DNA of 64,000 bases from Vibrio tritonius. GTDB taxonomy: Bacteria > Pseudomonadota > Gammaproteobacteria > Enterobacterales > Vibrionaceae. The stretch is from contig NZ_AP014636.1 of the NCBI RefSeq assembly GCF_001547935.1, positions 434,001 through 498,000 on the forward strand. Direction: 5' to 3'. This document shows, one piece after another, positions 29,837 to 60,177 of this stretch (position 1 is its first letter; each line of letters begins with the position of its first letter). The notes below the pieces were generated by a model. The model had not been told where the DNA came from, made no database searches, and saw only the letters and a list, made by a program, of their open reading frames with translations. Both the position numbers and the translations under genes were made by a program.

Positions 29837-29859
29837 TTTTATGTAAGCGAAGGTTGTTT

Positions 29860-30327
29860 ATGGACATCACGAAAATTCTCACAGTGAAACATGTAAAACT
29901 GAATATGGTTGCGACGACCAAAGCGGAAGCGATTGAAGAGCTAACCGATTTACTTTGGAAAGAGGGGGCGATTAGCAGTCGTGAAGATTTTATTAGCGAC
30001 GTATGGAAGCGCGAAGAGCAAGGTTCCACCGGCTTTGAAAATCACATTGCTATTCCTCATGGTAAATCTTCAGCGGTGAATCATACCGCGCTTGTGATTG
30101 GACGCACTGACAACGACATTCCCTGGGAGAGCCTCGATGGCAGCGATATTCGTTGCATCATTTTGTTCGCCGTTCGTCTTGAAGATCAAAATACCACTCA
30201 TATTCGCCTATTAACTCAAGTGGCCAGTGCTCTTGCGGATGAAGAGATTGTAGACCAGTTACTCAAAGAAAAAGATCCACAAAATATCGTTAATCTCTTT
30301 AGCCAATATGCTGAAGCAGAATGCTAA
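29860..30327 (+). CDS. PTS EIIA component, fructose/mannitol type
   Basis: A 155-residue phosphotransferase protein with the active-site His67 in NHIAIPHGKS and the family's STGFENHI before it. It passes phosphate from HPr to the EIIB of 30400. The start at 29860 (MDITKILTVKHV) is preferred to 29806 since the 5' part overlaps the regulator gene and lacks a good ribosome binding site; GAAGG lies about 10 bases before the chosen ATG. It sits 23 bases after the regulator gene. Confidence 0.9.
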   Translation: MDITKILTVKHVKLNMVATTKAEAIEELTDLLWKEGAISSREDFISDVWKREEQGSTGFENHIAIPHGKSSAVNHTALVIGRTDNDIPWESLDGSDIRCIILFAVRLEDQNTTHIRLLTQVASALADEEIVDQLLKEKDPQNIVNLFSQYAEAEC

Positions 30328-30399
30328 TACCAACCTTTCATTATTTCTGTTTGCCAATATCGGCTGCAGAGATAATGGACCTAACTTTCGAGAATGATT

Positions 30400-30711
30400 A
30401 TGAATATTGTAGGTGTTTCAGCGTGCACAGTCGGAATTGCACACACATATATCGCACAAAAGAAAATCGTCGATGCGGCTAAAAAAGCGGGGGACAATGT
30501 AAAAATTGAAACTCAAGGCACGATTGGTATCGAAAACACATTGACCGATGAAGACATTAGAAATGCAGACATTGTTATCTTAGCTTGTGACGTCAATATC
30601 TCCGGAGAACAACGCTTCGAAGGTAAGAAAGTCGTTAAAGTTCCCACCCAAACAGCGATTAAGTCTCCCAATAAACTGATTGAGAAATTGCACGAGCTGA
30701 TTAATCAATAA
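30400..30711 (+). CDS. PTS EIIB component, fructose type
   Basis: A 103-residue EIIB-Fru domain with the phosphorylated Cys9 in VSACTVGIAHTYIAQ, and TQGTIGIENTLTDEDI and ADIVILACDVNI in family order. The ATG at 30400 is preferred to the ATG at 30394 because GAGA is correctly spaced only for the former. A single protein, whereas E. coli FruA fuses EIIB with EIIC. Confidence 0.9.
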   Translation: MNIVGVSACTVGIAHTYIAQKKIVDAAKKAGDNVKIETQGTIGIENTLTDEDIRNADIVILACDVNISGEQRFEGKKVVKVPTQTAIKSPNKLIEKLHELINQ

Positions 30712-30754
30712 CCGATTAATAACCAAATAAGCAATAACAAATAGGGGTTTATTC

Positions 30755-31861
30755 ATGACTATTAAAGAAATATGGAAAGCAGCAAATCCGAAAGGGCATT
30801 TGCTGACCGCTATCTCGTTTTTGATTCCAATTGTTTGTGGTGCAGGTTTTATTATTGCTATCGGTATGGCAATGGGTGGTACGGCGCAAGATTCCTTAGT
30901 GTCTGGGCAGTTTGACTTATGGCAGTCACTCGCCACTATGGGGGCAAAAGCACTCGGACTATTACCCGTCGTCATAGCCTGTGGGATCGCTGGTTCAATT
31001 GCAGGTAAGCCCGGTATTGCACCTGGATTTGTGGTGGGACTTGCGGCTAACGCTATCAGCGCTGGCTTTATCGGTGGCATGATCGGCGGTTATCTAGCAG
31101 GGTATATCGCACTTGGCATCATCAAAAATGTTAAAGTGCCCGACTGGGCGAAAGGTTTAATGCCAACCTTGATTGTGCCATTTTTTGCCTCACTCGCCAG
31201 CGGTCTTATCATGATTTACATCATTGGTACGCCAATTGGTATTTTCACCGATGGTTTGACCTCTTTCTTAAGAAGCATGGGGACATCTTCTAATTTAATT
31301 GTGGGTGCAGTGATCGGCGCGCTGTGTATTGTCGATTTTGGTGGCCCAATTAATAAAACGTGTTTTGCTTTTGTATTAACACTACAAGCGCAAGGTATTA
31401 ATGAACCAATTACCGCATTACAATTAGTCAATACGGCAACCCCAATTGGTTTTGGTTTAGCGTATTGGATCAGTAGCTTAATGCGCAAAAATATTTATAA
31501 CCATGAAGAAATTGAAACTTTAAAATCAGCAGTGCCAATGGGCGTAGTAAATATTGTTGAAGGTTCAATTCCGATTGTTATGAATGACATTATTCGCGGT
31601 ATTGTAGCCGCTGCGATTGGTGGTGCTTGTGGCGGTGCAGTTACCATGGTGTATGGCGCGGATGCAACTGTCCCATTTGGCGGTGTGCTGATGATTCCTA
31701 CCATGTCAAACCCAATGGCGGGTGTGATGGCATTAGTGGTTAACATCTTGGTTACCGGTATTGTCTATGCGATTATCAAAAAAGAAGTTCCTCGTGATGT
31801 GGTCATTAATAATGACGACCAAGAGGAAGAGATCGATCTAGACGATATTAAAATTAGTTAA
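30755..31861 (+). CDS. PTS EIIC component, fructose type
   Basis: A 368-residue inner-membrane sugar-translocating domain with about nine hydrophobic helices. Conserved family blocks include HLLTAISFLIPIVCGAGFIIAIG, AGKPGIAPGFVVGL, DFGGPINKTCFAF and the substrate-site stretch VVNIVEGSIPIVMNDI near residue 263. The C-terminal tail is acidic (DQEEEIDLDDI). Ribosome binding site AATAGGGG precedes the start. With the EIIA and EIIB genes before it and the AlsE-like epimerase after it, the sugar taken up may be a ketohexose other than fructose, such as D-allulose. Confidence 0.92.
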   Translation: MTIKEIWKAANPKGHLLTAISFLIPIVCGAGFIIAIGMAMGGTAQDSLVSGQFDLWQSLATMGAKALGLLPVVIACGIAGSIAGKPGIAPGFVVGLAANAISAGFIGGMIGGYLAGYIALGIIKNVKVPDWAKGLMPTLIVPFFASLASGLIMIYIIGTPIGIFTDGLTSFLRSMGTSSNLIVGAVIGALCIVDFGGPINKTCFAFVLTLQAQGINEPITALQLVNTATPIGFGLAYWISSLMRKNIYNHEEIETLKSAVPMGVVNIVEGSIPIVMNDIIRGIVAAAIGGACGGAVTMVYGADATVPFGGVLMIPTMSNPMAGVMALVVNILVTGIVYAIIKKEVPRDVVINNDDQEEEIDLDDIKIS

Positions 31862-31960
31862 GCGACTAATCAAATATTCAAAACTATTTTCTCATCAATA
31901 GGCATTACTATTAAATTATCGCCAGATAATGAAGTTGATGGGAACCGTCATATCACAAGT

Positions 31961-31999
31961 ATATTAGTTGAAAGAGTGAAATAGCCTTTCAACTAATAT
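31961..31999 (+). promoter_or_regulatory. Long perfect hairpin between EIIC and the epimerase gene
   Basis: ATATTAGTTGAAAG (31961-31974) pairs at all 14 positions with CTTTCAACTAATAT (31986-31999), leaving an 11-base loop. There is no T-run. It may be an mRNA processing or stabilising element, or a dyad for a DNA-binding protein, separating the transport genes from the epimerase. Confidence 0.5.
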
Positions 32000-32029
32000 C
32001 TATTTATCTTTGATAATGGATTTTAAAAT

Positions 32030-32722
32030 ATGAGTGAACATATTCATATATCTCCATCGCTAATGACGATGGATCTGGACCAATTTAAAGAGCAAATCAC
32101 TTTCCTTAATGATCATGTCGATTCATTTCACATCGATATTATGGATGGGCATTTTGTACCGAATCTAAGTTTGTCACCTTGGTTTATTGAACAAACGCGT
32201 AAGCTCACTAATAAAGAGATGTCTGCGCATCTTATGGTCACCGACCCAACATTTTGGGTACAACAACTGATTGATATCAAATGTGAAGTTATCTGCATGC
32301 CTGCTGAAAACATTAACGGCATCGCGTTTCGTCTTATCGACCAAATCCATGCCGCTGGCTTAAAGGCAGGTGTGGTTCTTAACCCAGAAACCCCCGTGCG
32401 CGATATTCTGCCTTATATCGATATGCTCGATAAAATCACTATTATGACAGTGGATCCTGGCTTTGCTGGGCAGCGCTTCTTAGTGCGGATGTTAGATAAA
32501 ATCACGGAACTTCGCGCACTACGTGAGGAGCATGGCTATCACTATCTGATTGAAATGGATGGTTCAACCAACAAAGCACACTGGAAAGTGATTCATGATT
32601 CTAAACCTGACATTTACGTGATTGGCCGCAGCGGATTGTTCAACTTGGCTAACAATATTCATAGCTCATGGGAAATGATGGTCACTGAATTTGAATCGGC
32701 AACCGGGCAGAAATTCGCATAG
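32030..32722 (+). CDS. alsE: Ribulose-phosphate-3-epimerase family, close to D-allulose-6-phosphate 3-epimerase AlsE
   Basis: A 230-residue TIM-barrel epimerase that aligns through its length with E. coli AlsE (231 residues). Metal-site residues are His34 and Asp36 in SFHIDIMDGHFVPN, a His in SAHLMVTDP (about 67) and an Asp in LIEMDGSTN (about 180); the AlsE-like MTVDPGFAGQRF and GRSGLFN follow. It would turn D-allulose-6-phosphate into fructose-6-phosphate. Its place after a fructose-type PTS that would deliver a phosphorylated ketohexose fits that role. Ribulose-phosphate epimerase activity is the alternative. Confidence 0.8.
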   Translation: MSEHIHISPSLMTMDLDQFKEQITFLNDHVDSFHIDIMDGHFVPNLSLSPWFIEQTRKLTNKEMSAHLMVTDPTFWVQQLIDIKCEVICMPAENINGIAFRLIDQIHAAGLKAGVVLNPETPVRDILPYIDMLDKITIMTVDPGFAGQRFLVRMLDKITELRALREEHGYHYLIEMDGSTNKAHWKVIHDSKPDIYVIGRSGLFNLANNIHSSWEMMVTEFESATGQKFA

Positions 32723-32820: not shown

Positions 32821-33576
32821 CTACACTGCCTGCAAATCGATATTTTTTGCACGGATAAGTTCTTGGATCTCTTTATCCAAATGTGAATCGGTGATGATGC
32901 TAGTGGTTTCGCTTAAATCACACGCTTTGTAAAGAGAATAGGCACCGTATTTTGAACTGTCGGCGATGAGTATTTTTCTGTTCGCGTTTTGTATGATGTC
33001 TCGTTTAAGAAATGCTTTTTCTTCTGTTGGGGTGGTTATGCCTTTTTCAAGACTCCAACTGTTACAGGTCAAAAACGCGATATCGGGGTTGATGGAACGT
33101 AATAATTGGCGTCCGTGCTCTCCGATCGTTGATTGGCTGCTGTAGTCTACCGTACCACCAGTGACAATCACTTCAATTTGTTTAAATTCAGATAAAAATA
33201 GAGCAATGTGCAGATCAACGGTGATGACTTGAAGTGGTAGGTCGATAAGATTTTTTACCAGAGCCATTGATGTCGTTCCTGCATCAAGAACGATGGAATC
33301 TCCAGCCTTGACCATCGTCGCTGCACATTCTGCAATACGCTGTTTTTCGCGCATTGCACGCAGCATTTTCTCATTGGTTGTTGGTTGATTTGCGACGAAG
33401 CGGTTAAGCGATACACCACCATGAGTTCGAGTAATGACACCTTGTTCATCCAGTTTGATTAAATCTCGTCTGATCGTGGCAGGCGAGGCTGCCACAATTT
33501 TGACTAGATCATCAACGGTCACCAAATTATGGTGTTTTAAGTACTCAACTATCTGCTCAACTCGCTGATTCTTCAT
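32821..33576 (-). CDS. DeoR-family transcriptional regulator of the acid-sugar locus
   Basis: A 251-residue repressor. The N-terminal helix-turn-helix reads [42 protein letters not shown] (key residues SPATIRRDL, residues 30-38) with THGGVSL after it, and the C-terminal DeoR effector domain includes [32 protein letters not shown] and ADSSKYG. It ends the leftward operon, overlapping the PdxA2-like gene by 4 bases. It probably responds to a phosphorylated intermediate and may bind the palindrome at 35927. Confidence 0.9.
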
Positions 33577-34559
33577 ATTTTGCTCAATTTAACGGCTAAC
33601 TCTACCGATTTAACCATGCTTTCGGGATTGGCTTTACCCGTCCAAGCGATGTCAAATGCGGTCCCATGGTCTGCTGAGGTGCGGAAAAATGGCAAACCCG
33701 CTGTGATGTTAACACCATCGTAAAAGCCCATCAATTTCAGAGGGATGTGTCCTTGGTCATGGTACATTGCAACCACAATATCGTATTGACCTTGAGAGGC
33801 TTGTAAGAAGACCGTGTCTGGGGGGCAAGGACCATAGACATCTACACCCTGTTCACGCATTTCAGAAATGCTTGGATTGAGAATTTCAAGTTCTTCATGA
33901 CCAAACAATCCATTTTCACCTGCGTGGGGATTAACACCAGCGACTGCAATTCTAGGATTGGCAAATCCGGCTTTTCTCATGAACTTATCAGCAATGTCAA
34001 TGACAGTATTAACGCGAGTTTTATTCAATGTTTGTAGAAACTTCAATAGCGCTATATGGGTTGTTACATGAATAACACGAAGAGTGTCAGTGTAGAGCAC
34101 CATAGCGTAATCTTTTGTATCCGTTAACTTTGCCAGCAATTCGGTATGACCCGGATAATGATGCCCTGCTAAATGAAGTGCTTCTTTATTCAGTGGGGCA
34201 GTAGCGATGGCATTGATTTCGCCCTTCAAAGCCAATTCGGTAGCTTGTTTGATACAACGATAGGCAAGATCGCCAGCCTGAGCTTGTACTTTACCAATTT
34301 CAAAGTGCTCCATATCCTCAAGAGGAACGTCAATGACATTCACGATCCCCGGAGCAAATATAGCGTCGCTGATAGATGTAATGATTTTCAACTCTTGTGG
34401 AGAAGCGAGCTTTTTGTCGATAATCGATTTCAGTATTTCAACGCTACCAAAAACAACACAATTCGTACCCGAAAGTGAATCGGTATTAAGCGCTTTTAGG
34501 ATGATTTCTGGACCAATACCCGCAGGATCGCCCATTGTGATACCAATGACACCTTTCAT
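33573..34559 (-). CDS. PdxA2-type 4-phospho-threonate/erythronate dehydrogenase (decarboxylating)
   Basis: A 328-residue protein of the PdxA family. The metal histidines are visible in [23 protein letters not shown] and [16 protein letters not shown], and the start [15 protein letters not shown] is the family signature. When paired with a DUF1537 kinase, as here (4-base overlap with the kinase gene), PdxA homologues oxidise D-threonate- or D-erythronate-4-phosphate, giving dihydroxyacetone phosphate and CO2, rather than working in vitamin B6 synthesis. That transfer rests on published work on DUF1537/PdxA2 pairs. Which four-carbon acid is used cannot be read directly. Confidence 0.88.
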
Positions 34560-35842
34560 TGTCTGACCTCTTTATGTAATTGTTGAATAACTTGAGAAAA
34601 CGTCGTCGGATCGCCAAATCCGCCAGCTTTAGTAAATGTTGGAAACGGTGTGTATTGGCTTTCAAGTTGCCCCCATGGTACACAACCTGCCACAATGCCC
34701 TTGATTTGATATTGTGTTGCGTTTAACCGTTTAGCTGTCGCCATGGCAACATCTCCGCCACATAGAATCAGCCCACCAATATGTTCATGAGCAGCTCTCA
34801 CAATTTGGTAAGTCAGCTCAGCTAAACATTCACGGACATGTTCAGCTAATTGCATTTGAGTTAAACCATATTGAGTCGCTAAGTTTTTTAACTCATATCT
34901 AAGCTCTGGATTTTTGCAGCTTCGCACTACACAGTTGGCTCCTGACTTTAATCGGCTTATCGCATCAGCAGTTTGCTTGTTGATGTAAAGCCCGCTGTTA
35001 TCAGAGAGAATATTATCTATTTCTAGATCAATAACTTCCGCAATTTTCTCGTCGACTAAATATTGTGATTGAGTCAAGGTCATTTCACTCATTGACCCAA
35101 TCATGGCGAGTACAGGCTGTTTACTCTTTTTCAATGGCAGGTCAGCTGTTGCTTGTTGTTCGACGATAGCGTGCGTTAGTTCTCCAGTCGTCACGAAAAC
35201 GGTAGGTATTTTTAGTTGGGTTGCTGCCTGGTAAAGCTGGTAAAGGTCATCATGAGTTTCGGTATCACATACGATAATTTCGCTACCAGTTTCATAAAAA
35301 TGATCAAAACTTTGTCGTTGCAGCACATTATTTACTTCGTGAGAAAGATATTCCACGGTGACTCGCGTAGTTTGAGACTGAATAATCTCAGCAATGCGTG
35401 ATGAGTGAATGGGGGACTTCGGGTCTGATGCAAACTCTGTCTCAGCAAGTGGTATGTCATTGACATAGCATAACCCGTTAACAGTTTTTCTACCGGCCGA
35501 AGGGGCGGCTATCGCAACAATAGCTAGGGAATAACCCGAAGAGAGTAAGGCGTCAATCTCACTACCGATGTTTCCTCTTAGTGTTGAATCGACTTTCTTA
35601 ATCAGTAGAGGTTGTTGTTGTGCTAAATGGTAGTTTTGCGCGACCTTCTGTAGCGCTGATTTTGCATCTTGTTTATCTAGATCTCGTGAGTCAGTACAAA
35701 TAACGCCGGTATCGATGACGCTGCTTTGCTTGTTTTGTGATGAGAGTAATACATGTGTTGCAATACCTGCTGAAGCGAGGGCAACGCCAACATCATTTGC
35801 GCCAGTAAAGTCATCAGCGAGGATATACCGGGGTCTACTCAT
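34556..35842 (-). CDS. Four-carbon acid-sugar kinase (DUF1537 family; D-threonate/D-erythronate kinase type)
   Basis: A 428-residue kinase. The N-terminal domain opens with ILADDFTGANDVGVALASAG (acid-binding Asp pair) and has KKVDSTLRGNIGSEIDALL (key residues DSTLRGN); the C-terminal ATP-binding domain has LILCGGDVAMATAKRL and GCVPWG. The start at 35842 (MSRPRYILADDF) is preferred to 35872, with GAAGGAAGG directly upstream. It is first in the leftward operon and phosphorylates the 4-hydroxyl of a four-carbon aldonic acid. The gene is divergent from the aldolase/TRAP operon across a palindrome, so both arms probably share control. Confidence 0.9.
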   Translation of the reverse strand: MSRPRYILADDFTGANDVGVALASAGIATHVLLSSQNKQSSVIDTGVICTDSRDLDKQDAKSALQKVAQNYHLAQQQPLLIKKVDSTLRGNIGSEIDALLSSGYSLAIVAIAAPSAGRKTVNGLCYVNDIPLAETEFASDPKSPIHSSRIAEIIQSQTTRVTVEYLSHEVNNVLQRQSFDHFYETGSEIIVCDTETHDDLYQLYQAATQLKIPTVFVTTGELTHAIVEQQATADLPLKKSKQPVLAMIGSMSEMTLTQSQYLVDEKIAEVIDLEIDNILSDNSGLYINKQTADAISRLKSGANCVVRSCKNPELRYELKNLATQYGLTQMQLAEHVRECLAELTYQIVRAAHEHIGGLILCGGDVAMATAKRLNATQYQIKGIVAGCVPWGQLESQYTPFPTFTKAGGFGDPTTFSQVIQQLHKEVRQ

Positions 35843-35926
35843 TCCTTCCTTCATTTGATTTCTGAACTCCAAGATTTATCGATTGGTTTCATTGTAATCA
35901 AAAAATCATATTAATAAAGACATTTT

Positions 35927-35942
35927 TGATTAAATTTAATCA
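35927..35942. promoter_or_regulatory. Candidate operator of the divergent acid-sugar operons (perfect 16-bp palindrome)
   Basis: TGATTAAATTTAATCA is its own reverse complement, in the 209-base gap between the divergent kinase and alcohol dehydrogenase genes. Flanking words GTAATCA (35895-35901) and ATGATTAT (35945-35952) repeat the half-site, a pattern like multi-site DeoR operators. The regulator at 32821 is the obvious candidate. Confidence 0.55.
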
Positions 35943-36051
35943 TTATGATTATTTGTGAGCTAAATCTCGCAAAGTGAATCCATTTTTATTTATAAATATG
36001 ACTAATTTGTAAACGATGTGATTGAAAATAATCAAACGGCCGAGGGAAGGT

Positions 36052-37188
36052 ATGAACATATTTACAACAGTAATAAGTGGTGGGCTTGAGCAGTCATTGC
36101 AGATCTTATCGAAGGATGCTCATCTGCTGGTGATGACCGACGGCAATGTAATCAATTTGGATAAAGTTCAATCGCTAATATCCTCACTGGATAATCACGG
36201 TTATCACTACACTCTCATTAGCGATCTTCCTGCAGAACCAAATAATCATGATGTTGAACGTCTAATTGACGTTTTGCCTACTGATGTTGACGTTGTACTT
36301 GGTATTGGTGGCGGCAGTGTACTGGATATTTCTAAATTGATTTCTGTTCTTTACAGCGGTTCGTCTCCTTCTGTGGACTTTTTTAATCAATTATTGGCTG
36401 GTACAAAGCCAACGGCAAGAATTCCTCTAGTACTTATTCCTACCACGGCTGGAACTGGTGCAGAAGCAACGCCTAATTCGATTATCGCTTTACCCGAGAA
36501 GTCAACGAAAGTCGGCATTATTTCCCCACTCATGCTGCCTGATTATGTGGTTTTAGCTCCAGAACTGACGACATCAATGCCATCGCATATTACTGCGTCA
36601 ACGGGCATTGATGCGCTTTGTCATCTGATTGAATGTTATACAGCAAGCGTTTCAAATCCAGTTGGCGACAATTACGCCATGATTGGGATGCAAAAGTTCT
36701 TTGCCAATATAGAGAAAGTGATTGAATCACCGAGTGATCTCACTGTTCGCCTTAATTTGTTGTGGGCGTCTTATTATGGTGGTGCTGCCATATCTCATTC
36801 AGGGACACATCTTGTCCATGCTCTTTCCTATCCTTTGGGGGGCAAATATAAGATTCCTCATGGATTAGCCAATTCCTTATTACTTGTTCCTGTGATGAAG
36901 CACATTTATCCGCACTGCGAAGAAAAGCTTGCCAACGTTTATCGCTTACTTCCACAAGCAGATATGTCTCTGTCTGACTCCGACATGGCATCTAAGTTAG
37001 TCGTTTATCTAGAGCACTTGGTCAAAATGCTCGGCTTGCCAACGACGCTAAATGAAATAGGTATTGAACGAGAACAACTCACCGAACTCGCAGCGGCAGC
37101 GATGCAAGTGACTCGTTTACTCAATCACTCACCGGTAAAAGTCACAGAACAAGAAGTTCTGAAACTTTATCAAAGTATCACCAATTAA
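36052..37188 (+). CDS. Iron-containing alcohol dehydrogenase-family protein
   Basis: A 378-residue group III (iron-type) dehydrogenase. The NAD-binding GIGGGSVLDISK lies at about residues 85-96, PTTAGTGAEATPNS follows, and the metal ligands are in TGIDALCHLIE (Asp, His) and SGTHLVHALSYPLGG...IPHG (His). The ATG at 36052 has GAGGGAAGG in front; the frame extends to a TTG at 36022. First gene of the rightward operon. In this context it may reduce a sugar-acid semialdehyde made by the aldolase, or oxidise a hydroxyl of the starting compound; the substrate is inferred only. Confidence 0.88.
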   Translation: MNIFTTVISGGLEQSLQILSKDAHLLVMTDGNVINLDKVQSLISSLDNHGYHYTLISDLPAEPNNHDVERLIDVLPTDVDVVLGIGGGSVLDISKLISVLYSGSSPSVDFFNQLLAGTKPTARIPLVLIPTTAGTGAEATPNSIIALPEKSTKVGIISPLMLPDYVVLAPELTTSMPSHITASTGIDALCHLIECYTASVSNPVGDNYAMIGMQKFFANIEKVIESPSDLTVRLNLLWASYYGGAAISHSGTHLVHALSYPLGGKYKIPHGLANSLLLVPVMKHIYPHCEEKLANVYRLLPQADMSLSDSDMASKLVVYLEHLVKMLGLPTTLNEIGIEREQLTELAAAAMQVTRLLNHSPVKVTEQEVLKLYQSITN

Positions 37189-37197
37189 GGATCTATT

Positions 37198-38073
37198 ATG
37201 ACTAGCCTGATTACTGGTCCACATGTTGCCATTGTTACACCTTTTAATGAACAAGGCGCCCTAGACGAAAAGGCACTGAGAGCGCAAGTTCGTCGGCAAC
37301 TCACAAATGGCAATAAGATTTTTTGTAACGGAACGAACGGCGAATTCTTCGTATTAAGTGACGCAGAGAAACGTCGTGTGGCTGAAATTTGTCTTAACGA
37401 AGCCAATGATAATGATTTGGTGGTGACGCACATTGGTGAAACGTCACTTGCTCAGACTATTGCTCACGGTAAAGATGTTGCTGCGATGGGAATCAAAGCG
37501 GTCTCGGTTATTACTCCATGGTTTTCTGCTTTACGTCCCCATGAGTTGGTTCATTATTATCAACAAGTTGCGGATGCTGTACCCGTGCCGATTTACCTCT
37601 ATAACATTCCCGCTCGTACTGGTAATACCATTACCCCTGATGTTGCTGCTGAACTGGCTAAACATCCCAATATTTATGGGATAAAGGACAGCGCTGGTTC
37701 GTTAGAAAGCCTGCAAGGTTTTCTTGCGGTAAGCCAAAATGCGGAAAACTTCGATGTGCTAACCGGACCTGACTCATTAATTTTGACTGGTTATCAACTC
37801 GGCTGTGTTGGTTGCATTTCTGGAATAGCCAATATTGTACCTGAACTAGTCAATCAAGTTTATCGTGGCTTCTTACAAGACAACATGGCCTTGGCTAACG
37901 AAGCCCAAAATAGGATTAATTATTTACGTTCAACACTTTATCCGATGGCTTTCGCTCCTGCTGTTGTGAAGAAAATGGTGAACTTATTGGGAGAAAACGT
38001 GGGTGAGAGTCGCTATCCCGTATATTTCTCGAAAGAAGAAAGAGAGAGAATGCTAGAGATTTTTAACGGATAA
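37198..38073 (+). CDS. DapA/NanA-superfamily aldolase (pyruvate-forming type)
   Basis: A 291-residue class I aldolase/dehydratase-fold protein. The substrate carboxylate loop is GTNGEFFVLSDAEK (about residues 43-56), the catalytic Tyr lies in YLYNIPARTG (about 137), and the Schiff-base Lys in IYGIKDSAGSLE (about 165). Members cleave or form 2-keto-3-deoxy sugar acids (NanA, KdgA) or make dihydrodipicolinate. Neighbours (TRAP transporter, sialidase-like protein, YhcH) point to a 3-deoxy-2-ulosonic acid rather than lysine synthesis. It lies 9 bases after the dehydrogenase gene. Confidence 0.87.
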   Translation: MTSLITGPHVAIVTPFNEQGALDEKALRAQVRRQLTNGNKIFCNGTNGEFFVLSDAEKRRVAEICLNEANDNDLVVTHIGETSLAQTIAHGKDVAAMGIKAVSVITPWFSALRPHELVHYYQQVADAVPVPIYLYNIPARTGNTITPDVAAELAKHPNIYGIKDSAGSLESLQGFLAVSQNAENFDVLTGPDSLILTGYQLGCVGCISGIANIVPELVNQVYRGFLQDNMALANEAQNRINYLRSTLYPMAFAPAVVKKMVNLLGENVGESRYPVYFSKEERERMLEIFNG

Positions 38074-38110
38074 ATAAAATTAGAAAATATAAAAATAAGG
38101 ATACCCTACA

Positions 38111-39109
38111 ATGTTTAATAAGCACATTCGATATGCTCTTAAGACAGCAGCATTATGTTCCATAGTTATAGCTGGAGTTGCACAAGCAACTGACACGGCG
38201 AGTATTATATCTCAACCACCAGGTAATGGCTGGTATACCTACGGTACAACCTTTTCTCAATTAATACCGAAAGCAACCCACGATGAATATAAAATTAAAC
38301 TGATTCCTCGTGGAGGCGGTATGACTAACCCTGTTGTGGTGAATAATGGTAAAGCCGATTTTGGTTTCGCGACATCTAATGCTGCTGTTTGGGCACGTGA
38401 TGGTCTAACTGATATCTATAAAGGTCGAACAAATAAAGACTTACGTATGGTTCTTGATGACGTGCAGCAAGCCTACACCATAACGGTTGCTCGTAAAGGT
38501 TGGGTTGAGCAAACCGGTAATGATACTTGGGAAAAAATCATCCATGCAGACAAAGTGATTATTGCGATGAAGCCAACTGGCTCTCAAGTGCCAATTATTG
38601 CTAACTATATTTTTGAATCTCTAGGTACCGATTTTGAGACACTCAAAAAAGAAGGGAAAATAGTCCAAATGGGGAGCGGTCAGGCTAGCCAAATGATGCG
38701 TGATAATGCAATCGATGTGTATATTGATAATGTTCCGGCAATGCATCCCAATCTCACTGAAATGACCCTGACGAGTGATGTTACTTATATTCCTTATTCT
38801 AAGAAAACACTAGAAGCCTTAGCAAAAGTTGGTCTGCCAACGGGTACTATGCCAGCAGGTACTTACAATGAACAAACTAAGGATTATGTCAATCCAGTTA
38901 GTGCTACGGTATTCCTAACTAACTCAAAAGTCAGTGACGATATTGTTTATAACGTCACCAAATCTCTAGTCGAAAATCAATCTGAAATCAAAAAGGTGCA
39001 TTCACCATTAAAATTTTGGCATCCAGAAACCATTGGCTCACACCAAGAACTGGTTAAATTACATCCGGGAGCTCTAAAGTATTATCGCGAGCAAGGTTGG
39101 ATTAAATAA
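38111..39109 (+). CDS. TAXI-type TRAP transporter solute-binding protein
   Basis: A 332-residue periplasmic protein with a signal peptide ending near AGVAQA. It shows TAXI-family blocks: ISQPPGNGWYTYGTTFSQLI (key residues G-W-Y), RGGGMTNPVVVNNGKADFGFATSNAA near residue 75, and the end with HPGALKYYREQGWI. TAXI proteins deliver solutes to a fused DctQM permease, which is the next gene. The ligand is probably an organic or sugar acid; TRAP systems usually carry carboxylates. Confidence 0.9.
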   Translation: MFNKHIRYALKTAALCSIVIAGVAQATDTASIISQPPGNGWYTYGTTFSQLIPKATHDEYKIKLIPRGGGMTNPVVVNNGKADFGFATSNAAVWARDGLTDIYKGRTNKDLRMVLDDVQQAYTITVARKGWVEQTGNDTWEKIIHADKVIIAMKPTGSQVPIIANYIFESLGTDFETLKKEGKIVQMGSGQASQMMRDNAIDVYIDNVPAMHPNLTEMTLTSDVTYIPYSKKTLEALAKVGLPTGTMPAGTYNEQTKDYVNPVSATVFLTNSKVSDDIVYNVTKSLVENQSEIKKVHSPLKFWHPETIGSHQELVKLHPGALKYYREQGWIK

Positions 39110-39136
39110 GCGGATGTTTTGCTAGAGCTAGAGAGT

Positions 39137-39160
39137 GGTGTATCGATGCTTTGATACACC
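39137..39160 (+). terminator. Intercistronic hairpin after the TAXI binding-protein gene
   Basis: GGTGTATC (39137-39144) pairs with GATACACC (39153-39160). No T-run; likely mRNA stabilisation that favours the binding protein over the permease. Confidence 0.5.
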
Positions 39161-39216
39161 GTTCTTATCAAAGATCTTTAGGTCGTTCCTGTTGGTTCGA
39201 TAAGTAGGATATCGTT

Positions 39217-41097
39217 ATGAAATATCGTCATTTTATGAATGCCATAACCGCTGTTATTAGTATGGCCTATTTGGTGTTTCTATTACGCCAGTTCTTTTCC
39301 CCTGTGTCTCCACTGACTGCTGCAAGTATTCATGTGTACATGGCAACAACGCTAGTTTTGTGTTTTAAACCTTTGGAATTTAAAAATTCTTCTTTTCTAT
39401 ATTTATCAAGAATAGTAAATCTTATTTTTATTGGTTTAACACTGTCGGTTGTATTCCACTATTATACTGCTATTCCACGTTTGGAAACTCGTCTAGAAAT
39501 GATCGATGACATTCTATTTTCCGATAAATACGCATTTTGTGTTGGCTTATTAATGCTGTTTGAAGCGGTTAGACGCTCAGTCGGTTTTTCATTGCTATCG
39601 GTTGTTATTGTATTTGTTCTCTATGGTTTTTTCGGTCCTCACTTCCCAGGGTGGACTGCATTCGATGGTTTTAGTCTCGATACCATGACAGAGCTAATCA
39701 GTATGCAAGCCGATGGCCTATTTGGTATTACGGCAAGTACAGCAATTAACTTTGTGTTTTTCTTTGTTATGTTCGGTTGTGTCTTTACCATGACTGGTGG
39801 CGGCAGTGTCTTTATTGACTTAGCGATGAAAGCGACAGCTTCCTTGACTGGCGGTGCAGCGAAAATGTCTCTTTTAGGATCGGCATTGTTTGGTATGGTC
39901 AGTGGTTCTGCGGTGGCGAATACCACATCTACAGGTGTGTTGACTATTCCAATTATGAAACGCTCAGGTTACACCAAAGAACAAGCTGCAGCGACAGAAG
40001 CCATTGCATCTACCGGTGGTCAGCTAATGCCTCCTATCATGGGCATAGCAGCCTTCGTTATGTCTGATATGTTGGGTATTCCATATGCCGACATTGCGGC
40101 TGCAGGGATCATTCCCGCGACGGCTTTTTACTTTGCTTTATTCGTTATTATTGATTTGAGAGCTCGTAAAACAGGGATTGGTAATATTGCCAAAGAAGAT
40201 CTGCAATTTGAGCCAATTATGCCTCGTGTTCATTTACTCATTTCTCCAGTATTTCTTGTTATCGCACTAATTTCAGGCTATTCAGCGCCTTATGCAGCAT
40301 TTGTTGGGACGGTATTTGCCCTTTTAGCACCACTATTACGTAAAAACACACGTTACACCTATAAAGTTGTCTACCCGATGATCATGGATATTGCGAAGCA
40401 GATGTCTTGGGTATCAGTACCATTAGCTTCAGTCGGTATTATTATGGTTCTTGCGACTCAATCTAACTTGGCCTTCAAGTTCGTCGAAATTTTGAGTTCA
40501 GTGGGGCAAGATAATCTGTATTTATCTCTTATTATGGTGATCTTGGGTTGCGTTATTATGGGGATGGGGCTGCCAACGGTAGCGGCTTATATTATTGGTT
40601 CAATTATCTTTGCTCCAGCACTTATTTCTATGGGGGTAGATACGCTCGCGGCCAATATGTTCATTATGTATTACTGCGTATTGTCAATGGTGACACCACC
40701 CGTCGCTTTGTGTGCTTATGCAGCTTCAGCGATAGGACATGCCGATTCATCTAAAACGGGCTTCATCGCTTTCTCGTATGCGTTGGTTATTTTCCTCGTT
40801 CCATTTAGCTTTATTACTGACCCTGTTGTTTTATGGAAAGGCAGTTGGTACCTAATTCTTATCGCTTTTCTGGGCATGTTAATGGCCACCTTCTGTTGGG
40901 CAGTATTTTTACAAGGATGGTTGAAAAAGAACCTCAATATTGTTGAAAGAATATTGTTTTTAGTGGCAAGTCTCGGAATTGTTCTGGATAACTCAGCGAC
41001 AACGCTTTGGTTTTTCTTCATAGGACTATCGGCAGTGCTAATTGTGTGGTGTTGGAAGTCAACTCCTAGAACAGTGCCTAATGCAACGCTAGTGTAA
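39217..41097 (+). CDS. TRAP transporter fused permease (DctQM, 4TM/12TM)
   Basis: A 626-residue inner-membrane protein with a small-subunit-like part (about residues 1-130) fused to a large DctM part. The DctM part has GCVFTMTGGGSVFIDLAMKA, LGSALFGMVSGSAVANTTSTGVLTIP, AIASTGGQLMPPIMG and MGMGLPTVAAYII, all hallmarks of TAXI-associated fused permeases. It would import the ligand of the TAXI protein using a sodium or proton gradient. It lies 107 bases downstream of the TAXI gene, with a hairpin between. Confidence 0.93.
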   Translation: MKYRHFMNAITAVISMAYLVFLLRQFFSPVSPLTAASIHVYMATTLVLCFKPLEFKNSSFLYLSRIVNLIFIGLTLSVVFHYYTAIPRLETRLEMIDDILFSDKYAFCVGLLMLFEAVRRSVGFSLLSVVIVFVLYGFFGPHFPGWTAFDGFSLDTMTELISMQADGLFGITASTAINFVFFFVMFGCVFTMTGGGSVFIDLAMKATASLTGGAAKMSLLGSALFGMVSGSAVANTTSTGVLTIPIMKRSGYTKEQAAATEAIASTGGQLMPPIMGIAAFVMSDMLGIPYADIAAAGIIPATAFYFALFVIIDLRARKTGIGNIAKEDLQFEPIMPRVHLLISPVFLVIALISGYSAPYAAFVGTVFALLAPLLRKNTRYTYKVVYPMIMDIAKQMSWVSVPLASVGIIMVLATQSNLAFKFVEILSSVGQDNLYLSLIMVILGCVIMGMGLPTVAAYIIGSIIFAPALISMGVDTLAANMFIMYYCVLSMVTPPVALCAYAASAIGHADSSKTGFIAFSYALVIFLVPFSFITDPVVLWKGSWYLILIAFLGMLMATFCWAVFLQGWLKKNLNIVERILFLVASLGIVLDNSATTLWFFFIGLSAVLIVWCWKSTPRTVPNATLV

Positions 41098-41110
41098 TCG
41101 TTCATTTTAA

Positions 41111-41133
41111 TTAGCCCTCTGATCGAGGGCTAA
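41111..41133 (+). terminator. Intercistronic hairpin after the TRAP permease gene
   Basis: TTAGCCCTC (41111-41119), loop TGATC, GAGGGCTAA (41125-41133). A strong stem without a T-run; downstream genes have the same direction and theme. Confidence 0.5.
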
Positions 41134-41174
41134 TCACCCAATTTAATGAAATACCCAAACATGGAGTAGATTCA

Positions 41175-42326
41175 ATGAATCAAGAAGTTGTCACAGTCAT
41201 TCGAGATGGAAAATTAACGAGTAACGATGATCGATTTTCCACAGCAATGTTGCCTTCTAATTATCCCCAAAATCATGCCTCAAATTTATTAGTCTTACCG
41301 AACGGTGACATCCTATGTACTTGGTTTGCGGGTACTCAAGAAGGGGTTTCTGATATTTCCATTTTGTGTTCTCGTCTGCGTAAAGGCAGTGATGTGTGGG
41401 AACTTGCGGTTAAACTATCAAATGATCCAGAGCGGTCGGAACAGAACCCTGTTTTATTTTTGGACCCAGATAATATTCTGTGGTTGCTTTGGACTGCACA
41501 ACTTGCAGGCAATCAAGATACGGCAATTGTTCGCTGTCGAAAGTCTCAGGATTTTGGTGAAACTTGGTTAGATATTAATGTGCTGATCGATAAACCGGGC
41601 ACCTTTATTCGTCAACCTATCGTGGTTCTAGAAAATGGTAATTGGTTGCTACCCATATTTAATTGCACGGTAAAACCAGGTGAAAAATGGGTCGGTAACT
41701 ATGACACAAGTAGCGTTAAAATTTCTGAAGATAAAGGAAAAACGTGGCGTGATGTGAATGTTCCGAATAGCCTCGGTTGCGTGCATATGTCGATTGCACC
41801 GTTAAAAAATGGCTCTTTAATTGCGGTTTATCGCAGTCGTTGGGCAGACCATATTTATCAAAGCTATTCACATGATCATGGTGAAACATGGAGTGAACCT
41901 AAAGCAACCGAATTACCGAATAACAATTCATCGATTCAAATCACTGCACTTAATAACGGCGATTTAGCCATGGTATTCAATAACATGAGCGCGGCAGGTG
42001 CAATCTCACGTCGCAGTTCTTTGTATGATGAGATTGAGGATGACAGTGGAGCCAAAGAGCCGGAAATTATTGATGGCAAGAGTGCATTTTGGGGCGCTCC
42101 ACGAGCACCAATGTCGTTGGCGATTTCAAAAAATAATGGGGAAACATGGTCGGTTATTGGCAACCTTGATGAAGGAGATGGCTTTTGTATGACCAATAAC
42201 TCCCAAGAGAAGCTTAATCGAGAGTTTTCTTACCCAACCATTACTCAATCTCCGGATGGAGTAGTACACATCGCTTATACCTATTTCCGTCAAGCGATTA
42301 AATATGTGCGTATAAATCATTTGTAA
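41175..42326 (+). CDS. BNR/Asp-box repeat protein, sialidase-like fold (GH33-related), cytoplasmic
   Basis: A 383-residue protein of the BNR_2 beta-propeller group often annotated exo-alpha-sialidase. Four Asp-box motifs are visible: SQDFGETW, SEDKGKTW, SHDHGETW and SKNNGETW. Conserved family blocks are HASNLLVLPNGDILCTWFAG, QNPVLF, GTFIRQPIVVLENG, GCVHMSI and RSRWADHIYQS. There is no signal peptide, so it works in the cytoplasm on something already imported. GH33 contains ketosidic 3-deoxy-ulosonic-acid hydrolases (sialic acid, Kdo, DHA). True glycosidase activity is unproven: the family is broad and the classical N-terminal arginine motif is not obvious. Confidence 0.75.
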   Translation: MNQEVVTVIRDGKLTSNDDRFSTAMLPSNYPQNHASNLLVLPNGDILCTWFAGTQEGVSDISILCSRLRKGSDVWELAVKLSNDPERSEQNPVLFLDPDNILWLLWTAQLAGNQDTAIVRCRKSQDFGETWLDINVLIDKPGTFIRQPIVVLENGNWLLPIFNCTVKPGEKWVGNYDTSSVKISEDKGKTWRDVNVPNSLGCVHMSIAPLKNGSLIAVYRSRWADHIYQSYSHDHGETWSEPKATELPNNNSSIQITALNNGDLAMVFNNMSAAGAISRRSSLYDEIEDDSGAKEPEIIDGKSAFWGAPRAPMSLAISKNNGETWSVIGNLDEGDGFCMTNNSQEKLNREFSYPTITQSPDGVVHIAYTYFRQAIKYVRINHL

Positions 42327-42335
42327 TCGAAATGT

Positions 42336-42365
42336 AGGTAACCCTATCCCTTCATTGGGTTACCT
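42336..42365 (+). terminator. Intercistronic hairpin after the BNR gene
   Basis: AGGTAACCC (42336-42344) pairs with GGGTTACCT (42357-42365). Confidence 0.5.
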
Positions 42366-42386
42366 AATATTTAGGAGAGTATTGTC

Positions 42387-42857
42387 ATGATATCTGGCAG
42401 TTTATTTTCGTTATCCACTGCAGGACTACTTGATCCATTTAAACAGATTCTATCGTACTCACAGTGTTCCTTTGCCGCATTATCTGAAGCAGATGACCAA
42501 AAAATGCAACTCTCAGATGCATCGTGGTTTTGCAATATTGGACCAACGGCAACCCAAGAACCTGAACTTCGTCATACAGAATTTCATAAACTTTATGCGG
42601 ATATTCATGTGGTATTGGAAGGTGAAGAACGCATTAATTTTGGAGTGATCAATTGCATGGATGAGGTGTTTACTGAGAAAAAGCCGGATTTGTTGATTTT
42701 GCAGACGCCAAAACTTACACAATCTATGACGCTCAGGGTGGGAGACTTCGCTATATTTTTCCCCGGAGAACCTCATCAGGCTCTGTGTATGGTCTCTGAA
42801 CCAAAACCCATTCGTAAAGCGGTTTTCAAGGTGCCGTTATCGATGATTGAGGAGTAA
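42387..42857 (+). CDS. YhcH/YjgK/YiaL-family protein, probable sugar-acid anomerase
   Basis: A 156-residue cupin-like protein. Metal-ligand candidates are in HTEFHKLYADIHVVLEGEERI (His, His, Glu by key residues) and FPGEPHQALCM, the two conserved family blocks. E. coli YhcH (NanQ) has been shown to speed anomerisation of sialic acid, and other members sit in sugar-acid operons. Here it follows the BNR protein and precedes the SDR by 2 bases, consistent with a ulosonic-acid substrate that must open before aldol cleavage. Confidence 0.83.
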   Translation: MISGSLFSLSTAGLLDPFKQILSYSQCSFAALSEADDQKMQLSDASWFCNIGPTATQEPELRHTEFHKLYADIHVVLEGEERINFGVINCMDEVFTEKKPDLLILQTPKLTQSMTLRVGDFAIFFPGEPHQALCMVSEPKPIRKAVFKVPLSMIEE

Positions 42858-42859
42858 TT

Positions 42860-43537
42860 ATGAGTCGTATTGCGTTAGTGACAGGAGTGAGCTCTGGGAT
42901 CGGTCAAGCTATCGCGGAGACACTGCTAAAAAATGACTGGCATGTTATAGGATTAAGCCGCACACAAGTGAGCCATGAACATCCTAATTTTGTTAGCTAT
43001 TCTGTTGACCTCATGGATACTCAGAAATTGCTAAATTGTCTAGAACAATTGCCTAAGATTGATGCTGTTATCCATGCGGCAGGAAAAATGGTCGCAGCAC
43101 CTTTAGGGAGCCTCAACCTTGAGGAAAGTCAGGCGATATGGCAACTGCATGTTGGGGTTGCTGAAATTTTGGCGAACTATTTTGCTGATAAGCTCAGTGA
43201 AGGAGGGCGTATCGTTATTATCGGAAGTCGAACATCAAAAGGTGTGGCTGGTCGTTCGCAATATGTTTCGACTAAATCTGCGTTATTTGGGATGGTACGT
43301 AGCTGGGCCGCAGAGCTTGCTCCAAAAGGCATTACCGCCAATATTATCGCTCCAGGAGCAACAGAAACGCCAATGCTAATGAATCCAAATAGAAAAGCGT
43401 CACCTCCTAAATTGCCCCCTATCGGTCGTTTCATTTCCCCTTATGAAGTTGCTCAATATGTCAATTTCATTGTATCTCCTCATGCTGGAGCTATTACTGG
43501 GCAAGAGCTAGTCATCTGTGGGGGCGCTTCGCTTTAG
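42860..43537 (+). CDS. SDR-family oxidoreductase
   Basis: A 225-residue classical short-chain dehydrogenase, slightly short for the family. The cofactor loop is TGVSSGIGQ (residues 8-16), HAAG follows near residue 72, and the catalytic Ser and Tyr-xxx-Lys lie in IIGSRTSKG and SQYVSTKSALFG; the C-terminus has TGQELVICGGASL. The R in GLSRTQ after the second strand would favour NADP(H). Last gene of the rightward operon. It may oxidise or reduce a hydroxyl or semialdehyde of the pathway. Confidence 0.9.
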   Translation: MSRIALVTGVSSGIGQAIAETLLKNDWHVIGLSRTQVSHEHPNFVSYSVDLMDTQKLLNCLEQLPKIDAVIHAAGKMVAAPLGSLNLEESQAIWQLHVGVAEILANYFADKLSEGGRIVIIGSRTSKGVAGRSQYVSTKSALFGMVRSWAAELAPKGITANIIAPGATETPMLMNPNRKASPPKLPPIGRFISPYEVAQYVNFIVSPHAGAITGQELVICGGASL

Positions 43538-43675: not shown

Positions 43676-44335
43676 ATGAGCAATATAAAGAACGTTTTAT
43701 GTTTTGGTGACTCGTTAACATGGGGATGGATTCCGCAGCCGCACAGTGTGCCTTCGCAGCGTTATGCGCCTGATGTACGTTGGACAGGCGTGATGGCGAA
43801 GGTGCTGGGGGATGAGTTTCATGTGATAGAAGAAGGGCTGAATGCTCGTACTGTCAATGTTGATGACCCGCTTGATCCGCGTCTTAATGGTTCCGCTTAT
43901 TTTCCGACAGCACTTGCCAGCCATTTGCCCTTGGATTTAGTCATCATCATGCTAGGGTCAAACAATACCAAAGCGGCGTTTAATCAGAGCGCACAAGAGA
44001 TTGCTGAAGGAATGTCGTTGTTGGTTACTCAGGCGTACCGCTGTGCAGGTGGGGTGGGGGCTGCGTATTCGGCGCCGAAAATCTTGGTGGTGTCGCCACC
44101 GCCCTTAGGTGAGATGCCCGACCCATGGTTTCAAGTGATGTACGAAGGTGGTCATGAGAAAACCCTAGAGCTTCCTAAGTATTACCAGATGATGGCGAAC
44201 TTTTTAAAAGTGAATTTCTTTGATGCGGGCTCAGTTATCAAAACCGATGGCTGCGATGGTTTGCATTTAACGCCTGAAAGTAATGGTATGCTTGGGCGAG
44301 CCTTGGCAGAGCATGTGCTAAAGATACTTAGTTAA
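43676..44335 (+). CDS. SGNH/GDSL hydrolase, close to the MsAcT arylesterase/acyltransferase
   Basis: A 219-residue SGNH hydrolase. Ser13 in CFGDSLTWGW is the nucleophile, GSNN lies in block III, and Asp/His are in DGLHLTPES at the end. The layout closely resembles the M. smegmatis acyltransferase MsAcT (APDVRWTGV, EEGLNARTVNVDDPLDPRLNGS, VSPPPLGEMPDPWFQ by key residues). MsAcT has GTND where this protein has GSNN. It hydrolyses or transfers short acyl esters; such enzymes are usually cytoplasmic and no signal peptide is seen. It appears monocistronic. Possible role: removal of acetyl groups from imported sugars. Confidence 0.88.
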   Translation: MSNIKNVLCFGDSLTWGWIPQPHSVPSQRYAPDVRWTGVMAKVLGDEFHVIEEGLNARTVNVDDPLDPRLNGSAYFPTALASHLPLDLVIIMLGSNNTKAAFNQSAQEIAEGMSLLVTQAYRCAGGVGAAYSAPKILVVSPPPLGEMPDPWFQVMYEGGHEKTLELPKYYQMMANFLKVNFFDAGSVIKTDGCDGLHLTPESNGMLGRALAEHVLKILS

Positions 44336-48103: not shown

Positions 48104-48452
48104 AGCAAATTAGCGGTATTAACAGGACATTCCCGTAGGATAGCGGTTTTGTTTGAACAAGAAAACCAAGTCGCCCATTTTCAATCTAATAAGCTGTTCT
48201 TACTGATTTTACTGCCAAGAATATCAAGACCACCTGTATAGCAAAAGTTGACTTGCCCCATGGGAATGTTGGACGGTGCGTAAACGTTTTCACAAATTTG
48301 GGAGTCAAGGTAACACTATGACACCTCAATGTTATGCATTTTGTGGCTTATTGTTCACAATGTCATCGCTTTTACGTAAATCTACCGTGCAGCTTTTTAC
48401 GTTGTTTGACAAATGGCTTTGGCTGCCGGAGCGCATACAAAGAGAGGGAATT
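48104..48452. other. Gene-free upstream region of the rhamnogalacturonan lyase gene
   Basis: No gene or clear hairpin. The lyase frame is open back to 48276, but that extension has no ribosome binding site and puts a poor peptide in front of a clear signal peptide, so it is read as 5' leader. No site of a known pectin regulator (KdgR type) was recognised. Confidence 0.4.
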
Positions 48453-59264: not shown

Positions 59265-60027
59265 GAAAACGCTCCAATTGAGGAGTGGTAGGCAGCGAGA
59301 GATCAATCATCAAACCATCTTGACTCACATAAACGCCATCTGTTTCAGCGCAAGTACGTTTGATCTGTGGGAGGTATTCATCCCAACAGTGGTAAACCAA
59401 GAGATTAGGGAGGTTTAACGCCTGTTTAAGCTCAATGCATTGTGGCAAATCGCCATGGGAATTATCGGAGGATAAAGCGGCAAAAGAGGCACATTCTTGA
59501 AACGCAATATCGACGTTGTGCATCAAAGCGGTTGTTGCTGCCGTTGGGCGTCCGTCGCCACTATAAAATACACTATGCGTACCATTGCTGATGCGCAGAG
59601 CGCGATTAGGGACTTCATGCTGCGTATCTGCTGTATCTACATTCCAATTGCCAATCGACATATGCTCTTGGGTTGTCATCCAGTGGATTGCAAAGCAAAT
59701 ATTCTTTTCTGGCCAGATAGATAAAGCCACTAAGTTTTCCAGAACCGTTTGTTGTTCTTGTTGGCAGATAATGATCAGGGGTTTGGTACGTCCAAAGCTT
59801 TTCCATTGATTGAGCAAAGCAGCCAATCCCGAACAGTGGTCGGGATGAATGTGGGTGAAGTAGATGACATCAACTGTGTTGATGTCGAGGTTTCTTTGCC
59901 ACAATGCTCTGGGAATGGTTGGCCCACAGTCAATTAGCCAATTCTGATGTTCATCAGAAATAATGACTGCCGATGTATTGCGTTGTGTCGAAAATGCACT
60001 GCCTGATCCAATTACTTCAACTTTCAT
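59257..60027 (-). CDS. Metallo-beta-lactamase-fold hydrolase (PhnP/RNase Z-like)
   Basis: A 256-residue metal-dependent hydrolase. The di-metal motif is THIHPDHCSG (HxHxDH) at about residue 68, and further ligands lie in STQHEVP-like ADTQHEVPNR, FYSGDGRP and SHGD; the C-terminal His is in YHCWDEYLP. This layout is that of PhnP phosphodiesterases and RNase Z relatives, which cleave cyclic or linear phosphodiesters. The start at 60027 has GAGG upstream; 60057 lacks one. Paired with a LacI regulator and divergent from an ABC importer, it may process the imported compound. Substrate unknown. Confidence 0.82.
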   Translation of the reverse strand: MKVEVIGSGSAFSTQRNTSAVIISDEHQNWLIDCGPTIPRALWQRNLDINTVDVIYFTHIHPDHCSGLAALLNQWKSFGRTKPLIIICQQEQQTVLENLVALSIWPEKNICFAIHWMTTQEHMSIGNWNVDTADTQHEVPNRALRISNGTHSVFYSGDGRPTAATTALMHNVDIAFQECASFAALSSDNSHGDLPQCIELKQALNLPNLLVYHCWDEYLPQIKRTCAETDGVYVSQDGLMIDLSLPTTPQLERFLD

Positions 60028-60133
60028 CCATAGCCTCAAATTTATTCTCAGTTTCATTAATCTGTCATAACGCTACGTCAGATTAAAAACATCAATTGAT
60101 GATGATACACCGAGTTGTCATTTTTTTTACACC

Positions 60134-60155: not shown

Positions 60156-60177
60156 TTGCAGAAAGAGATTATATTTC

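Follow-up and report, generated by a model that had tools for sequence, protein, structure and literature searches.

A candidate catabolic route for the pectin sugar acid Dha, passing through D-threonate, in a two-operon cluster of Vibrio tritonius and other bacteria

Which compound is consumed by a gene cluster in which a kinase and a dehydrogenase of the D-threonate type stand back to back with an aldolase, an importer and a sialidase-like protein? The question is raised by positions 32821-43537 of a 64-kb stretch of Vibrio tritonius DNA (contig NZ_AP014636.1, positions 434,001 to 498,000; hereafter the window), part of a genome of 5.22 Mb in two contigs. A first-pass annotation had proposed that the cluster degrades 3-deoxy-D-lyxo-2-heptulosaric acid (Dha), a component of rhamnogalacturonan II (RG-II) that is among the rarest sugars of plant walls. 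The analysis reported here, which rests on sequence comparison, gives a probability of about 0.6 to the reading of the cluster as a catabolic route with Dha as its substrate. No description of bacterial Dha catabolism was found in the literature searched, and the passages available from that literature gave no account of the fate of Dha after its release from RG-II.

The gene content of the cluster is solid, and all the genes named in the first-pass annotation were recovered with matching coordinates and strands. The left operon, on the minus strand, contains the expected DUF1537 acid-sugar kinase of the DtnK type (34556..35872) and PdxA2, a predicted 4-phospho-D-threonate dehydrogenase (33573..34559), and is closed by a DeoR-family regulator that had gone unnamed (P0001, 32821..33576; PF00455 167 bits, PF08220 66.8 bits). 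The right operon, on the plus strand, encodes an iron-type alcohol dehydrogenase (Fe-ADH, 36022..37188), a class I aldolase of the dihydrodipicolinate synthase (DHDPS) family (37198..38073), a TAXI-family TRAP solute-binding protein (38111..39109), a fused TRAP permease (39217..41097), a sialidase-fold (BNR_2) protein (41175..42326), a YhcH/DUF386 protein (42387..42857) and an SDR oxidoreductase (42860..43537). The open reading frames (ORFs) listed for the kinase and Fe-ADH begin with TTG; an ATG at residue 11 is the likelier start of each (about 35842 and 36052, respectively).

Linkage and probable shared regulation of the two operons

An alignment of the sialidase-like protein served as the query against named bacterial genomes. 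The analysis covers the best 80 of 561 loci, a set that is chosen on the sialidase-like gene and includes close kin and two contig pairs from one strain. The four core enzymes (kinase, PdxA2, Fe-ADH and aldolase) were counted by tblastn with identity thresholds that we set ourselves. All four were found beside the sialidase-like gene in 58 of the 80 loci; this count supersedes an earlier one based on ORFs, which gave 50/80 and was too low in GC-rich DNA. The complete loci comprise 51 from Pseudomonadota, 6 from Bacillota and one without rank, and include Enterobacteriaceae, Erwiniaceae, Pectobacteriaceae, Yersiniaceae, Pasteurellaceae, Vibrionaceae, Bacillaceae, Veillonellaceae, Selenomonadaceae, Rhodocyclaceae, Comamonadaceae and Azospirillaceae. 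Counted singly over the 80 loci, the aldolase is present in 61, DtnK in 62, Fe-ADH in 61, PdxA2 in 59, an SDR of the window kind in 62, an SSS importer in 61, YhcH in 49 and DeoR in 44. The remaining 22 loci, each short of at least one core enzyme, consist of five that are clipped at contig ends (L055, L056, L067, L071, L077), eleven from split Pantoea and Bacillaceae genomes, five from Bradyrhizobium and one, L032, that lacks PdxA2.

Where the genomes are related they are not independent observations; even so, gene order and importer type differ among the complete loci. TAXI importers are found in Vibrio and Lonepinella and SSS importers in most loci. Klebsiella and E. coli have DASS/SLC13 importers, Azospirillum has an ABC importer, and a Comamonadaceae plasmid encodes a TTT binding protein. 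That the core enzymes stay with the sialidase-like gene despite such varied importers and gene orders exceeds chance. Two further arrangements were noted among these loci. In L032 (3470-6019), and also in L047, L050 and L069, the aldolase adjoins genes for an MFS importer and a D-2-hydroxyacid dehydrogenase (PF02826), which are perhaps a second entry route. An apparent 900-residue fusion of SSS importer and sialidase in Bradyrhizobium (L073, L075) was dropped as a long-ORF artefact of GC-rich DNA, since importer and sialidase are read in different frames (3 and 2, respectively).

The closest named relatives of the window sialidase-like protein are from Vibrio species, and such a protein is also listed under the name Vibrio natriegens; the gene was found in 0/40 sampled relatives, 24 of them from the same genus. 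In a survey of 369 genomes of the class, neither the sialidase-like gene nor the aldolase was found outside the genome of the window, and with a single positive genome this survey yields no co-occurrence statistic beyond rarity. Of 5426 complete E. coli genomes, 1043 have the sialidase-like gene. In E. coli 536 the whole cluster (L134, 4946-13925) is flanked by glnS and nagE, and a TerC-family gene separates its aldolase gene from the sialidase-like gene; in E. coli K-12 glnS and nagE adjoin and the cluster is absent there.

Genomes in which the two parts lie apart make the case for one unit stronger. Eighteen loci with the sialidase-like gene and an incomplete core by ORF count were traced into their genomes, and an aldolase was found in 12 of them. 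A DUF1537 kinase lies near the aldolase in all twelve, within about 1.5 kb in 11 and within about 4.3 kb in G058, where aldolase and kinase turned out to belong to the same locus as the sialidase-like gene. Seven such stretches were fetched: six contain aldolase, kinase and PdxA2 (five of these six Fe-ADH as well), and in the seventh (L130) the ORFs indicate PdxA2, DeoR and the sialidase-like gene.

The two operons also share a palindrome. The site TGATTAAATTTAATCA (35927..35942), predicted to be a DeoR operator, lies between them and is the sole exact copy of the 16-mer in the V. tritonius genome. A second operator-like site, TGATTGAAAATAATCA (36019..36034), carries 3 mismatches, and these are the only two matches at up to 3 mismatches in the window. 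At 2 mismatches six sites are found in the genome, which is at control level (five for the control pattern). Among relatives, all 44 divergent kinase/Fe-ADH intergenic regions, the window included, contain the palindrome with no more than 3 mismatches, compared with 7 of 2200 mononucleotide shuffles, the 44 regions being partly near-copies of one another. In 8 of 8 split Pantoea genomes TGATTAaATTtAATCA (0-3 mismatches) precedes the importer-sialidase operon by no more than 400 bases, and in the three of the eight whose kinase side was checked the palindrome stands there too. The pattern TGATTRWATTNAATCA was searched over 12 other genomes and gave 16 exact sites, 15 of them at cluster genes as placed by locus coordinates, so that the regulon seems to hold little else; no exact site was found in one of the 12, a Serratia genome (G429).

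The linkage of the operons, already claimed in the first-pass annotation, and their sharing of the palindrome are solid. Because the neighbourhood is conserved and the palindrome stands on both parts, the two operons look like one regulon, of which P0001 is the probable repressor; among the NCBIfam models it is closest to YgbI, at 184.2 bits (cut-off 400). Beside the palindrome, at 35943-36018, the window contains TTTGTGAGCTAAATCTCGCAAA, and the corresponding position in several enterobacterial loci is occupied by TATGTGAGCAA; by eye, these look like a CRP site.

The proposed route and its enzymes

The scheme can be summarized as follows. Uptake would proceed through the TAXI-TRAP importer, or elsewhere through SSS, SLC13/DASS, ABC or other importers. 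The cytosolic sialidase-fold protein would release Dha from its partner, and the YhcH protein may aid ring opening. The DapA-like aldolase would then split Dha, yielding pyruvate together with D-threuronate, which like the substrate of DapA itself is a semialdehyde acid of four carbons, and Fe-ADH would reduce D-threuronate to D-threonate with NADH. At the family level, the DtnK-type kinase is predicted to form 4-phospho-D-threonate and PdxA2 to convert it to dihydroxyacetone phosphate (DHAP) and CO2 with return of NADH. Seven carbons would thus yield pyruvate, DHAP and CO2 in a redox-neutral sequence at the expense of one ATP. Conservation suggests that the DeoR protein controls both operons at TGATTAaATTtAATCA. 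The stereochemistry was checked with Fischer projections: the D-lyxo configuration has C4 left, C5 left and C6 right, and cleavage at C3-C4 followed by reduction gives, numbered from the carboxylate, C2 left and C3 right, which is D-threonate. The original derivation of D-threonate from Dha by cleavage and aldehyde reduction is therefore right on paper.

D-Threonate catabolism by DtnK and PdxA2 was reportedly described by Zhang et al. in 2016. The window kinase scores 397.5 bits with the D-threonate kinase model NF047819 and 131.2 with OxoTetrKin, and PdxA2 scores 576.6 bits with NF002891. The NF047819 cut-off (450) is passed by the cluster kinases of Pectobacterium (613), Klebsiella (514) and Pantoea (489), and those of Lonepinella (423), V. 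hepatarius (384), Bacillus (323) and Megasphaera (290) fall below it. In a quick tree of 37 rows, with long branches flagged, the window kinase belongs to a 16-row clade with Pectobacterium DtnK (SH-aLRT 96), and YgbK stands in a separate group. The cluster kinase of Pectobacterium carotovorum is nearly identical over its full length (854 bits) to PDB 4xfm, which we take to be the assayed D-threonate kinase of P. atrosepticum. PdxA2 matches PDB 2hi1 (E=2.9e-152) and 6e85, a 'D-threonate 4-phosphate dehydrogenase' (E=1.5e-144). Clade, model scores and PDB relatives together make D-threonate the likely substrate of the window kinase, as had been supposed for the kinase/PdxA2 pair, and D-threonate is very likely an intermediate of the pathway. 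DUF1537 kinases of D-threonate and D-erythronate, DtnK among them, are covered in the available passages of PMC10971088.

The aldolase (PF00701, 191.6 bits) provides an indication of the substrate. In the DHDPS and N-acetylneuraminate lyase family a lysine forms the Schiff base and a tyrosine is catalytic, and the corresponding Lys163 and Tyr135 are present in 63/63 sequences of this aldolase family. Arg138 of DapA binds the carboxylate of aspartate semialdehyde; the window aldolase has Arg140 at this place, which in E. coli NanA and YagE is a Leu. An arginine is found there in 58 of the 63, the other five being four paralogue-like sequences and one with Lys. The enzyme had been called DapA/NanA-type at first; at a residue facing the aldehyde end it is DapA-like and not NanA-like. 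It differs from DapA at Phe109 and Asn47 and scores below the housekeeping DapA model TIGR00674 (174.7 against 206.15) and far below the NanA model TIGR00683 (114.9 against 382). Another locus of the V. tritonius genome reaches 361 bits with PF00701. Two aldolase paralogues of that genome other than the window enzyme carry Leu or Thr at the DapA-138 place. Arg140 would suit the acidic aldehyde derived from Dha better than the products of 3-deoxy-D-manno-octulosonic acid (Kdo) or N-acetylneuraminic acid. Cleavage of Dha is expected to give an aldehyde with a carboxylate, and as the source compound Dha is the best fit chemically.

Fe-ADH, the predicted D-threuronate reductase, scores 144.6 bits with PF25137 and 119.1 with PF00465, and the SDR 111.4 bits with PF13561. 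Both TRAP components exceed their cut-offs (TIGR02122, 134.9 against 84.35; TIGR02123, 493.2 against 320.65), which identifies the importer as TAXI-TRAP. The YhcH protein, possibly an ulosonic-acid anomerase, passes the broad model TIGR00022 (97.4 against 45.5) and is below the NanQ anomerase model NF040884 (97.6 against 160). The protein encoded at 41175, a predicted cytosolic Dha-glycoside hydrolase, has the sialidase propeller fold, and no signal peptide was found in it. Eight arginines (146, 220, 222, 279, 280, 310, 349 and 372) are invariant in 76/76 sialidase-like proteins and would suit a diacid. It matches PDB chain 5mqr weakly (E=0.45); this chain is presumably the GH143-bearing Bacteroides enzyme BT1020. 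VIA-align listed no GH143 chain for the protein, a result that excludes nothing. The Bacteroides Dha hydrolase, placed in GH33 by the first-pass annotation, belongs to GH143 according to the available passages of PMC6811678.

Competing explanations

A number of observations weigh against the Dha route. The description of the 41175 protein as GH33-like holds for its fold and fails at the catalytic glutamate: His204, invariant in 76/76 sialidase-like proteins, aligns, in a low-scoring sequence alignment, with a glutamate of NanB and NanC that we take to be the Glu of the sialidase Tyr/Glu catalytic pair, so that hydrolysis is not assured. The window kinase and, narrowly, PdxA2 fall short of their model cut-offs (397.5 against 450 and 576.6 against 583), and Fe-ADH and the SDR match no NCBIfam equivalog cut-off. 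The scheme offers no step for the SDR, which was found in 0/7 complete clusters with a DASS importer. No aldolase match at 1e-50 was found in 6 of the 18 traced genomes (five Bradyrhizobium and one metagenome-assembled genome of Acetobacteraceae), so that the importer-sialidase part may have a role in some other route as well; a different DHDPS-type gene lies nearby in three of the five Bradyrhizobium loci (L073, L076, L081), two of these genes being confirmed by Pfam. In the two split Bacillus loci that were tested (L060, L063), no palindrome precedes the importer. No secreted hydrolase was seen tied to the palindrome among the sites, not every one of which was annotated. A GH28 gene of one clustered type lies within the fetched locus in only 10/80 cases, its neighbours being ABC importer genes in Pantoea L023 and an altronate/galactarate dehydratase-type gene in Bacillus L064. 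Lastly, 14 of 40 genomes with the sialidase-like gene have no GH28 match, including V. hepatarius, both Pasteurellaceae tested and an Escherichia sp., and such genomes would have to scavenge.

In one alternative, which we regard as unlikely, regulon and D-threonate end are the same and the imported compound is either a modified Dha (in lactone, anhydro or O-methyl form) or another 2-keto-3-deoxy acid, converted by the sialidase-fold protein and the SDR ahead of the aldolase. A sialidase-like protein with an altered catalytic segment and no signal peptide, encoded beside importers of small acids, would agree with this, as would the loci L073, L075, L076 and L077, where importer, sialidase-like gene and SDR are together in genomes without an aldolase match at 1e-50. 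The complete clusters without an SDR mean, however, that no SDR step is obligatory, and to our knowledge no abundant compound of this kind yields D-threonate. Use of Kdo, 5-O-methyl-Kdo or a sialic acid is improbable. YhcH and the sialidase fold do recall sialic-acid pathways, and the available passages of PMC12168206 and PMC10762512 report that RG-II contains Kdo and that algal scales contain acids of the Kdo type. Cleavage of Kdo would nevertheless give D-arabinose, and that of sialic acids a hexosamine or a hexose. A single dehydrogenase could turn none of these into a threonate, a point already made in the first-pass annotation; moreover, Arg140 replaces the Leu of E. coli NanA, and it is two other V. 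tritonius paralogues that carry Leu or Thr.

Two further explanations are given very little credence. The DHDPS family includes dehydratases, and the window enzyme might be one of the KdgD type, D-threonate being made otherwise; its score with the KdgD model is only 79.3 bits against a cut-off of 373.95, and it is as an aldolase that it lets the four core enzymes close a redox-neutral route. Kinase and PdxA2 would also be enough to scavenge D-threonate or D-erythronate, with the right operon unrelated and merely adjoining. This last explanation, the least credible of all, is largely refuted by conserved linkage: 58 of 80 loci in two phyla and in varied gene orders have both parts, aldolase and kinase remain together in split genomes, and the same palindrome is found on both parts.

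The window cluster has the same kinase clade and PdxA2 type as the DtnK/PdxA2 system of D-threonate catabolism. Unlike there, the pair is embedded among an aldolase, Fe-ADH, an importer and a sialidase-fold protein, which would make D-threonate an internal intermediate. Sialic-acid catabolism (nanA, nanT, nanQ in E. coli K-12) likewise employs a DHDPS-family lyase, a YhcH-type protein and an importer, and the sialidases that feed it recall the sialidase fold of the window; the window cluster differs in lacking an amino-sugar kinase, an epimerase and a deaminase, and in the Arg for Leu of its lyase. The ygbI-ygbN genes of E. coli K-12 also combine a DeoR-type regulator with an adjoining DUF1537 kinase for four-carbon acids, but YgbK lies elsewhere in the kinase tree, beside a putative decarboxylase and isomerase. 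The GH143 system for RG-II in Bacteroides would free the same sugar, also by a propeller enzyme. In the available passages of PMC6811678 this is a five-fold propeller within a bi-modular enzyme, unlike the window protein, and kinship is unproven.

Pectin context, neighbouring genes and significance

In plants Dha occurs exclusively in RG-II, as stated in the passages available from PMC12168206, and those from PMC10762512 add the scales of prasinophytes and the theca of Tetraselmis, a marine source. The V. tritonius genome has five matches to the pectate lyase family PF00544 and one to GH28. A PL4 rhamnogalacturonan lyase is encoded 4.7 kb 3' of the cluster (48276-50135, plus strand; PF09284 243.7 bits, PF14686, PF14683). 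Of 40 genomes with the sialidase-like gene, 26 have a GH28 match (25 of them above the cut-off), as against 1 of 40 relatives that lack the gene; the comparison is confounded by the different taxonomy of the two genome sets.

Directly 3' of the SDR gene lies an SGNH/GDSL hydrolase gene (43676-44335, plus strand), which was left out of the cluster; its assignment as a pectin acetylesterase was rejected, the protein matching the PDB aryl esterase 2q0q (E=2.4e-93). Upstream, the plus-strand genes at 28271-32722 encode a PRD-type regulator, a fructose-type phosphotransferase system EIIC component and a ribulose-phosphate 3-epimerase-like protein, and are probably a separate sugar operon. Farther away, the ABC importer genes at 60115-63311 (plus strand) are nearest to a putative 2-aminoethylphosphonate type (PhnT2, 353.2 against 457.7), and a LacI-type regulator is encoded near them at 58257-59306 (minus strand).

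A more far-reaching form of the Dha reading is offered tentatively, at somewhat less than even odds. The cluster would be the first bacterial Dha pathway, in which a new family of cytosolic sialidase-fold proteins with His for Glu frees Dha after uptake by an importer, and a Dha aldolase derived from DapA and a D-threuronate reductase supply the known D-threonate kinase and PdxA2. It would be shared by plant-associated Enterobacterales, Bacilli, Alpha- and Betaproteobacteria, by animal-gut bacteria, by pectin-degrading Vibrio and, judged by the sialidase-like gene, by about one fifth of complete E. coli genomes, and Dha from pectin and green algae would be a common bacterial food. If the Dha reading itself holds, a substrate would be supplied for a widespread and misleadingly named 'sialidase family protein', and a carbon source for an E. 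coli gene cluster. The presence of a D-threonate kinase in pectin-degrading and gut bacteria would also be explained.

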